A stretch of 64,000 bases of DNA. Origin: Verrucomicrobiota bacterium (lineage in GTDB: Bacteria > Verrucomicrobiota > Verrucomicrobiia > Opitutales > Opitutaceae). A model generated the notes under the pieces. It worked only from the letters and a program-made list of their open reading frames with translations. It had not been told where the DNA came from and ran no database searches. The stretch covers positions 1-64,000 of the forward strand of contig JAQGOP010000046.1 in the NCBI GenBank assembly GCA_028293545.1, in the 5' to 3' direction. The translations under genes and the position numbers were made by a program. Shown here piece after piece: positions 1-3,439 of the stretch (its first letter is position 1; the number at the start of each line of letters is the position of its first letter).

Positions 1-600
1 CCGGCTTTTGGCCGGACGTTGGCCCCGCGTTACGGGTCTAACCTCTTACCTCTAAGGTTGCTTTAATTTTGCAGTGGGGTGACGCGTTTTCACGCCGCCC
101 CAATTGAGGAGGTTGACGAGCTTTGCCTGGCTCGCTCACTCCCCGCCGTCTCGTCTCCTTTGCGCGCCCCGCTCGCGTTAGCGAGCCGGGCCTTTTGGCG
201 GAGGTTTATTCCGCCGGGAAACGCGACTGCGTTCTGGTCTGCGCAGTAGCAACCATAACCCTCTGGGTAACTGCGTCGGCGCGTAGATCGAAACTCTCTA
301 CGGGCCTGACTCGGCTCGAGCGCGGTTTCTGATCGCGCCTTGCCGCTCAGCTCCTATTTCGTGTGTGAACTGACCGGACACGACTCCGGCCAGAGGAGCT
401 GGTGATATCTGCCTATCAACACCGCTAACGCGGCATTGCAGGGGCCGGCAGCACCAGCTGCCACCGACCATTCCCCGGTCGCCCGGGATTATCCCAGTCG
501 TGCTTTCGGCGGGTTTTTCAGGCCGCCGCGCTGCGACTGTTCTATCAAGGAACGCCGCCCAAACTGTGGCGCCAGTTCCCGAAATAAAGGCTTTGTTCTG
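1..600 (-). ncRNA. candidate large structured non-coding RNA (unidentified, truncated at window edge)
   Basis: No convincing CDS; about 17 consecutive hairpins, e.g. 1-15, 40-59, 76-101 (GAAA loop on minus strand), 171-186 (gctcgc-gtta-gcgagc), 197-215, 282-302, 310-320, 320-338, 422-433, 447-462, 465-481, 485-495, 507-528, plus enclosing stems 348-354/395-401, 242-247/270-275 and 495-500/534-539. Confidence 0.4.
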
Positions 601-796
601 CTCAACTTATTCACTCGTAAAAATGGTGAATAACTTGGGAGTAATCTGACTCACCGGTTGTTCACAGTGGGTTTATCCGCGCATGGACCCCGAATTCCTA
701 AATTCAGCCTGCAGCGCGGACGGCCGCCTGCGTTCCTTTGTGCCGGTGGTCCCTCGATCGGAAATTCGTGGTTGGAAGTTGGCGCGAGCCCGTTCG

Positions 797-3439
797 ATGT
801 TCACCGAACGACTGATGCCTGCTCCTCGCGAACTTCCCATTTACGAACTCGAATCGGCGGTGGTTTCGGCCCTCCGCGCCAGCGGACGATTGATCGTCCA
901 GGCGCCGACCGGGTCCGGAAAATCGACGCAGATCCCGCAGATGCTCCTGCGGCACGGGGTCCTCGGCGATCGCGGCGAAGTGGTTGTGCTCCAGCCGCGC
1001 CGACTGGCTACGCGGATGCTGGCGAAACGCGTCGCTGAGGAGGTCGGGACGCGCCTGGGCGAGATCGTCGGCTACCAGATCCGGCTCGAATCCCGCGTGA
1101 GCGAGCTGACGCGGATCCGGTTCGTGACCGAGGGGATTCTTCTGCGACAAATGTCCTTCGACGCCGAGCTCCGCGGCGTGAAGGCGATTATCTTCGACGA
1201 GTTTCATGAGCGCCATCTCTACGGCGATATCTCGCTCGCGCGGGCGGTGCAGCTGCAGCACACCACGCGGCCCGACCTGAAGGTGATTGTAATGTCCGCG
1301 ACCCTCGACGCCGGTGCGCTCAAAGCCTACCTCGCGCCGTGTGAGGTGCTGGTTTCACAGGGACGGAGCTTCCCCGTCCGCATCGAATATCTCCCGAAGG
1401 CGGTCAACTTCGAACACGAACCGGCGTGGGAAATCGCGGCGCGTGAATGCGAACGCGTCGCGGGCGAGACGACCGGCGACATGCTCGTCTTCATGCCGGG
1501 CGCATACGAAATCAGCCGCACGATGCAGGCGATCCAAGGCGTGAGGACGCTCCGGGATTTCGTGACGTTTCCCTTGCACGGCGAACTTCCGCCGGAGCAG
1601 CAGGACCGCGCGGTCGCGCGCTATGAAAACCGGAAGATCATTGTGTCGACCAACGTGGCCGAGACTTCGTTGACGATCGACGGCGTGACCGCGGTGATCG
1701 ACTGCGGTCTCGCCCGCGTGGCGCGCTTCGACCCTCACCGTGGGATAAATACGCTGTTGGTGGAAAAAATCTCCGTTGCCAGCGCCGACCAGCGCGCGGG
1801 TCGGGCAGGCCGCACGGCGCCCGGTGTGTGCGTGCGATTGTGGACCGAACGCGAACACGGCCAGCGCGCGCTCCAGGAATTGCCCGAGGTGAAGCGGCTG
1901 GATCTGTCGGAAGTGGTACTGACCCTGAAGGCGAGCGGCATCGATGACGTGGTGAATTTCCCGTGGCTGGAACGCCCGGAGCCGAGGGCGCTGGAGCGGG
2001 CGGAATTGTTGCTCACGGATTTGGGTGCGCTCGCGACTGAGGGTCGGGAGGGACCGCTGAGCCCGCCTTCAGGTCTGTCCGCGGACAGCGTTATCGGCAC
2101 GCGGGGCGGTCACGCCCCGCCTCGGATCACGGAGATGGGGCGAAAGATGCTGCGGTTCCCGGTGCATCCGCGTTACGCGCGCATGCTGCTGGCGGCGCAG
2201 GACCGCGGCTGCGTGCGGCCGGTGGCGTTGATGGCGGCGTTGACGCAGGGACGGAATTTCCTCCTGCGCGGGGTGCCGCGCGACGTCGAGCAGGCGCGCG
2301 AGGACACGCTGGGCGAGGAGCATGAAAGCGATTTTTTCCTGCTGATGCGCGCTTGGCGCTTCGCGGACAAAGCTGGCTACAGCCTCGATGCCTGCCGCCG
2401 CCTCGGGATCCACGCACAAGGCGCGCGCCAGGTCGGCCCGCTGTTTGAGCAATTCCTCGCGATCGCCGAAAAGGAGGGGCTCGACGTGAGCGAGCGTCGC
2501 ACCGACGGAGCCGAGATCCGGAAATGCGTGCTGGCCGGTTTCTCCGACCAGCTGGCGCGACGGCTCGACGGCGGGACGCTGCGCTGCGAACTGGTGCACA
2601 ATCGTCGCGGCGTGCTGGCGAGGGAGAGCGCGATCGAGAAATCACCGCTCCTGGTCGCGGCGGAAATCAGCGAGATCGAGGGGCGCGGCGGGGAGGTCAA
2701 CGTGCTGCTTTCGCTCGCGACGGCGATTGAGGAAGCGTGGCTGAGGGAAATTTTCCCCGCCGACTACCGCGAAGTGCGCGGCGTGACTTACGACGAAACG
2801 ATCAAACGGGTCGTGTCGCGGCGCGAACGCCGTTTCCGCGACCTGGTGCTCGATGCGAAGGTGAGCAGCGAAGAAGCACCGTTGAACGAAGCGGCGGCGC
2901 TGTTGACGAAGGAGGTCGTCGCCGGGCGCCTGAAACTCGAGGCGTGGGACGACTCGGTCGAGCAGTGGATCATCCGCGTGAACCGACTGGCGGAATGGTT
3001 TCCCGAATTGGAGGTGAACCCGCTGACCGAGGCCGACCGTGCGACACTCATCGAGCAGATCTGCTACGGGGAGCTGGGTTATCGTGACATCAAGGACAAG
3101 CCGGTGATGCCGGTGCTGAAGGACTGGCTGACCGCGGAGCAGCTGGCGGTGCTGGATGACTACGTGCCGGAAAAACTCACGATGGGAAACGGACGTCGTT
3201 CGAAGCTCACGTACGCGAAGGAAGGGCCGCCGGTGTTGAGCGCGCGGATCCAGGAACTTTATGGGATCGAGGGAAAATTCACGATCGGACACGGGCGGGT
3301 GCCGGTGAAGATCGAAGTGCTCGCGCCGAATCATCGACCGATCCAAGTCACCGACGACCTCGGGAATTTCTGGCGCGAGCAATACCCGAAAGTGAAAGCG
3401 GAGCTGTCGCGCCGCTATCCCCGGCACGAGTGGCGGTAG
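797..3439 (+). CDS. hrpB: ATP-dependent DEAH-box RNA helicase, HrpB-like (ORF open from 683; ATG at 797 preferred)
   Basis: APTGSGKSTQIPQ Walker A, FDEFHERH DEAH-like box, SATLD, QRAGRAGR motif VI, HrpB-type C-terminus (GRRSKLTYAKEGPPVLSARIQELYG). Confidence 0.9.
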   Translation: MFTERLMPAPRELPIYELESAVVSALRASGRLIVQAPTGSGKSTQIPQMLLRHGVLGDRGEVVVLQPRRLATRMLAKRVAEEVGTRLGEIVGYQIRLESRVSELTRIRFVTEGILLRQMSFDAELRGVKAIIFDEFHERHLYGDISLARAVQLQHTTRPDLKVIVMSATLDAGALKAYLAPCEVLVSQGRSFPVRIEYLPKAVNFEHEPAWEIAARECERVAGETTGDMLVFMPGAYEISRTMQAIQGVRTLRDFVTFPLHGELPPEQQDRAVARYENRKIIVSTNVAETSLTIDGVTAVIDCGLARVARFDPHRGINTLLVEKISVASADQRAGRAGRTAPGVCVRLWTEREHGQRALQELPEVKRLDLSEVVLTLKASGIDDVVNFPWLERPEPRALERAELLLTDLGALATEGREGPLSPPSGLSADSVIGTRGGHAPPRITEMGRKMLRFPVHPRYARMLLAAQDRGCVRPVALMAALTQGRNFLLRGVPRDVEQAREDTLGEEHESDFFLLMRAWRFADKAGYSLDACRRLGIHAQGARQVGPLFEQFLAIAEKEGLDVSERRTDGAEIRKCVLAGFSDQLARRLDGGTLRCELVHNRRGVLARESAIEKSPLLVAAEISEIEGRGGEVNVLLSLATAIEEAWLREIFPADYREVRGVTYDETIKRVVSRRERRFRDLVLDAKVSSEEAPLNEAAALLTKEVVAGRLKLEAWDDSVEQWIIRVNRLAEWFPELEVNPLTEADRATLIEQICYGELGYRDIKDKPVMPVLKDWLTAEQLAVLDDYVPEKLTMGNGRRSKLTYAKEGPPVLSARIQELYGIEGKFTIGHGRVPVKIEVLAPNHRPIQVTDDLGNFWREQYPKVKAELSRRYPRHEWR

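Follow-up and report, generated by a model that had tools for sequence, protein, structure and literature searches.

A large folded RNA at a contig edge in Opitutaceae is very probably a truncated, stand-alone MISL RNA gene

The first 640 nucleotides of a 64,000-nucleotide stretch of Verrucomicrobiota DNA, referred to here as the window, are densely self-complementary. A preliminary description, made from the sequence letters, had read them as a large structured RNA of no recognizable family, encoded on the minus strand divergently from hrpB and continuing to the left of the window. Which RNA is this, and how is its gene built? We propose, with a probability of about 0.9, that the left edge of the window holds a stand-alone MISL RNA gene of Opitutaceae (Verrucomicrobiota), truncated by the contig edge. 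This figure covers the identity of the RNA and the stand-alone layout of its gene; the inferred steps discussed below lie outside it.

Results

A known RNA family at the contig edge

The self-complementarity is genuine and exceeds chance. The minus strand of positions 1-494 folds at -237.2 kcal/mol, compared with -191.5 +/- 6.8 kcal/mol for dinucleotide-shuffled controls (z = -6.72), and none of the 100 shuffles reached so low an energy; the plus strand of positions 1-640 yielded z = -5.68 (20 shuffles). A cmscan search of window positions 1-1500 against Rfam matched RF03079 (MISL RNA) on the minus strand from 494 to 1 with 328.8 bits (E 4.1e-99), well above the covariance model's gathering cut-off of 274.6 bits. 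No other family exceeded its threshold in this search, the matches below threshold being chance ones, and RNase P RNA, tmRNA, SRP and rRNA had thus been rightly ruled out. A structured RNA of more than 600 nt, its assignment to the minus strand and its divergence from hrpB all stand (Table 1). The claim of an unmatched family does not, as the match passes the gathering cut-off; one of the outcomes that the preliminary description had itself set against its proposal, a known Rfam family, is what the search returned.

The match covers positions 1-489 of the 751 in the model. Contig C51 begins with the first base of the window, and because of this the 3′ third of MISL is absent; the truncation is an assembly cut, not an evolutionary one, and the RNA does continue leftwards as had been supposed. 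In the fast whole-genome search a shorter piece of this copy scored 226.4 bits. The window copy matches the Rfam fold together with its conserved unpaired segments. It is an ordinary member of a known RNA family, and the novelty lies in the surrounding anatomy.

Table 1. Features of the MISL locus in window coordinates
Feature	Position	Strand	Basis or remark
MISL RNA RF03079, model positions 1-489 of 751	1..494	-	cmscan 328.8 bits and alignment
Long-range helix, 5′ strand AGAGGUAAGAGG	42..53	-	Rfam consensus structure; partner CCUCACUC past contig end
PK1, 3′ strand GCAACC	56..61	-	pairs with GGUUGC
PK1, 5′ strand GGUUGC	249..254	-	pairs with GCAACC
PK2, 3′ strand CACGA	359..363	-	pairs with UCGUG
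PK2, loop strand UCGUG	379..383	-	pairs with CACGA
P0 5′ hairpin outside the Rfam model, CAGUCG...GGCGG-CCUGAAAAACC-CGCC...CGACUG	495..539	-	homolog comparison
boxA-like element GTTCCTTGATAGAAC, predicted transcript 5′ end	539..553	-	motif conservation across loci
Predicted -10 element CAGTTT (family pattern.A...T)	561..566	-	anchored conservation; inferred for window copy
Predicted -35 element TTTATT (TTG in other clades)	583..588	-	anchored profile; weak in window copy
DnaA-box-like site TTATTCAC	607..614	+	pattern TT[AGC]TTCAC
DnaA-box-like site TTATTCAC (plus-strand reading GTGAATAA)	626..633	-	pattern TT[AGC]TTCAC
DnaA-box-like site TTGTTCAC	658..665	+	pattern TT[AGC]TTCAC
hrpB, divergent neighbour, not part of the RNA	683..3439	+	NCBIfam TIGR01970, 585 bits

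Conserved helices, an added hairpin and pseudoknots

Paired changes were found in many helices of the Rfam model among 120 homologs, as judged by simple shuffles and slid controls, not by R-scape; the sequences are related, so that the counts of double-change cells given below are not independent. The window copy retains the conserved pairings across its aligned part. Most helices that had been picked out by eye belong to the conserved MISL fold in the Rfam alignment, namely those at 1-15, 197-215, 282-302, 320-338, 348-401 with 372-391, 422-433 and 447-462 and the inner one of 76-101, and that at 171-186 is a variable hairpin extension of the window copy. Three others were rejected as native pairs, being local alternatives that compete with conserved ones: 40-59 (aacct/aggtt) with the pseudoknot PK1, 465-481 (cgacc/ggtcg) with the first Rfam hairpin, and 485-495 (ggga/tccc) with P2.

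The helix proposed at 495-539, enclosing 507-528, forms the 5′ hairpin P0. Its outer helix is paired in 91.6% of cases among the 120 homologs, against 14-37% in slid controls and a mean of 62.5% in shuffles, and displays double changes in all five pairs tested; the inner stem is only partly conserved, at 65-89%. In addition, four pseudoknots with covariation (PK1-PK4) are absent from the nested Rfam model as printed. PK1 is 99.0% paired with double changes in six of six pairs (32 cells; slid controls 18-49%), and PK2 is 98.2% paired with 87 double-change cells (slid controls 17-45%). PK3 (CGCCA/UGGCG) and PK4 (CGCC/GGCG, with few changes) lie beyond the end of the window copy and are both 100% paired in the homologs. 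One MISL copy (L089, L229) carries an insertion of ~190 nt between parts of the model.

A boxA-like motif at the predicted 5′ end

The additions to the Rfam record were drawn from ~140 MISL loci. Conservation extends ~60 nt upstream of the Rfam start and takes in P0 and a boxA-like motif, GTTC[CTA]TTGA[TAC]AGAAC. Counting close variants, 131 of 144 distinct MISL loci have this motif upstream, in most cases 59-60 nt ahead of the model start. In 10 of the 11 genomes searched, its strict form GTTCNTTGANAGAAC was found once at each MISL copy and at no other place; in the remaining genome, G372, the motif has diverged.

A promoter pattern lies at a fixed distance from the motif, which places the start point there. 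In a clade of other families with a cysK-like neighbour, the pattern comprises TTG at -35 and TA...T at -13 to -8; it is weaker in Opitutaceae. Position-anchored conservation of the T at -8 amounts to 88% of 73 Opitutaceae loci and 75% of 32 cysK-clade loci. A generic scan upstream of the window copy found no promoter. The anchored pattern suggests that a sigma-70-type promoter probably starts the MISL transcript at the boxA-like motif.

The boxA consensus GYTCTTTAANA is gammaproteobacterial (PMC5725501), and CRISPR arrays make use of boxA too (PMC7862264). The rRNA leaders of the window's own genome and its relatives, read from those 16S 5′ ends that remain at contig ends, carry a boxA-like GYTCTTTGAAA: GCTCTTTGAAA stands upstream of 16S in the own genome (L287), and either GCTCTTTGAAA or GTTCTTTGAAA in the same group. 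Between rRNA GCTCTTTGAAA and MISL GTTCCTTGATA of the own genome, 3 of 11 positions differ; in the distant member G372, MISL GATCTTTGACA and rRNA GCTCTTTGACA differ at one. Compared with boxA, MISL motifs keep G1, C4, T6, T7 and A9 and vary at the consensus N (position 10). Position 5 varies by clade and is C in Opitutaceae, which makes the likeness imperfect.

A serious competitor, though we would not bet on it, is that the 15-nt motif is no boxA, and instead forms a hairpin that protects the 5′ end (GUUC...GAAC) or a palindromic DNA site for a protein. It is a near-perfect inverted repeat at most loci, and the whole palindrome is confined to MISL in 10 of the 11 genomes, the rRNA leader being without the right half. 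For the same reason the palindrome as a whole was rejected as the rRNA boxA itself; the left half alone resembles the rRNA leader. Against a plain hairpin or binding site, however, distant members (GATCTTTGACAGAAG, GTTCTTTGAAAGTAC) retain the left half, G[AT]TC.TTGA.A, but have a decayed right half, and variation falls mainly on position 5 and on the consensus N position. We consider boxA the more likely of the two. As such, the 5′ end would load NusB/S10 and, in the manner of rRNA, let RNA polymerase reach the end of a long untranslated transcript in spite of Rho.

DnaA-box-like sites ahead of the promoter

The pattern TT[AGC]TTCAC occurs one to four times in the 160 nt that precede the motif at 123 of 136 MISL loci, compared with 0.013 per locus expected from shuffles of single bases, and is thus more frequent than chance. 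TTATTCACA is also found upstream of dnaA in many MISL-bearing genomes. The window sites (607-665) stand between hrpB and MISL, and their target could be hrpB instead of MISL; similar sites persist where hrpB is not the neighbour. The sites also suggested oriC, a candidate that was rejected because MISL keeps no fixed distance from dnaA (~155 kb to ~2 Mb or more in complete genomes). Acting on MISL, they would couple its synthesis to DnaA. That the boxA-like 5′ end recruits NusB/S10 antitermination and the DnaA-box-like sites tie synthesis to DnaA has, in our estimate, an even chance of being correct.

A second copy in the same genome

The genome holds a complete second MISL copy at C63:38551-39302 (locus L034 of genome G000), with 500.5 bits and the full 751-position architecture, followed by typA. 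The two copies are ~82% identical. Each lies at or near a contig end. They may be tandem copies, flanked by hrpB and typA, that the assembly has split, or one of them may have been acquired. The window copy might then be a decaying or foreign duplicate, with the C63 copy as the functional gene. Apart from the divergence of the two copies and the cut at the contig end, this reading draws on the MISL tree, where both copies fall outside the MISL clade of their genus, the C63 one alongside G036 and relatives (support 100/97). We nevertheless judge it unlikely: the window copy retains the Rfam fold, the 5′ motif, P0 and both PK1 and PK2, and has hrpB beside it as usual; the genome stays inside its genus in the HrpB tree as well as in the TypA tree; and hrpB (by the window copy) and typA (by the C63 copy) are matched at full identity only once each across the genome.

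Second copies also occur elsewhere. Genome G003 gives a similar picture, open to the same two readings: of its two copies (L128, L143), which share 93% identity, one is cut short by a contig end and the other starts 80 nt into another contig. The second copies L156 (G383:C44) and L158 (G205:C33) lie away from hrpB and typA in a separate clade (89/93), possibly a paralog lineage.

Neighbouring genes and termination

Past the Rfam end, homologs carry a conserved CCACCCCC-type stretch and then an intrinsic terminator. The terminator stem, located beyond the end of the window copy, is 95.1% paired in the homologs with 263 double-change cells. It is likely that one discrete MISL transcript of ~0.86 kb is made and finished by this terminator.

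In Opitutaceae, hrpB lies upstream of MISL at 34 of 41 loci (at 30 of them within 600 nt), typA lies downstream on the same strand at 32, and the order hrpB (divergent), MISL, typA is found at 28; the identities of HrpB and TypA were confirmed with NCBIfam. Neither neighbour is present at any of 11 loci in other families. There, a large clade has a divergent gene and a cysK-like gene beside MISL, and family f118 has rplY-, pth- and ssb-like genes, all named by reading the sequences. Because its neighbours are stable within clades and different between them, MISL is a stand-alone RNA gene. The frequent same-strand typA could instead mark MISL as a cis-acting leader of the downstream gene, which we regard as very unlikely: the intrinsic terminator follows MISL, typA begins only ~0.2 to >4 kb further on with other genes in between, and in other clades cysK or rplY takes the downstream place.

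The MISL region contains no long or conserved open reading frame, the lengths of 120 homologs falling evenly into the three phases (42, 40 and 38 homologs). A degraded protein gene, which had been named as an alternative at the outset, or a mobile-element end would suit the contig-edge position and the two copies in the genome, but has next to no chance in view of the Rfam match, the covariation, the lack of frame conservation among homologs and the usual single copy of MISL per genome in a conserved place.

Occurrence and a hint of expression

At E <= 0.001, MISL was detected in 105 of 200 genomes sampled from the window's family, in 94 of 390 of its class and in 31 of 394 of its phylum, counts that are affected by search filters that lose weak matches; none of 14 control genomes had it. 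The 64 matches that bear a name all come from Verrucomicrobiota MAGs or assemblies, for the most part of Opitutaceae or Opitutae, and outside Opitutaceae MISL is patchy in the phylum. A phage or plasmid origin was rejected, since no phage matched and the sole plasmid match was to the helicase gene.

One contig, IMGVR_UViG_3300034676_001488 (L118:1-2347), joins ~475 nt of MISL directly to a piece of a Leviviricetes genome, with the gene for the maturation protein (Phage_mat-A, E 5.7e-28). As RNA phages pass through no DNA stage, the contig derives from RNA. Most likely it is a cDNA or assembly chimera of two RNAs in one library, which suggests that MISL RNA was present, and hence transcribed, in the sample. 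Fifteen other viral contigs with a loose 3′ pattern had no MISL.

Discussion

The literature examined held no role for MISL. Its product may be trans-acting, a scaffold or ribonucleoprotein RNA of housekeeping type and not a leader of a neighbouring gene, which we hold to be about as probable as its opposite. Going further, we tentatively suggest that MISL is a Verrucomicrobiota housekeeping RNA under rRNA-like rules, whose boxA would recruit the Nus antitermination complex and whose DnaA-box-like sites would couple its synthesis to replication; we put this wider model somewhat below an even chance. If it is true, MISL would be a large folded RNA, neither rRNA nor CRISPR array, with boxA in its own gene. 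The NusB and DnaA hypotheses bear on how bacteria produce long untranslated RNAs outside ribosomal operons, and the defined start and end, the pseudoknots and the candidate control signals provide concrete constructs for structural work on MISL.

With GOLLD, ROOL and OLE (PMC12286853), MISL shares that it is a large, structured bacterial non-coding RNA known from comparative genomics; in contrast to them, it lies on the chromosome, usually as a single copy, and gave no match in the phage collection, and cmscan returned no match to the covariance models of these three in the window segment. The likeness to boxA of rRNA leaders and CRISPR arrays (PMC5725501, PMC7862264) consists in the 11-nt motif, its place at the 5′ end and the long untranslated transcript, and it extends to the boxA-like motif in the rRNA leaders of the same genomes. 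Unlike boxA, the MISL motif lies at the predicted transcription start, continues into a palindrome and is variable at position 5. By Rfam's own threshold the window copy is a member of RF03079, and to that model the homologs add the P0 hairpin, the boxA-like 5′ end, the terminator and four pseudoknots.
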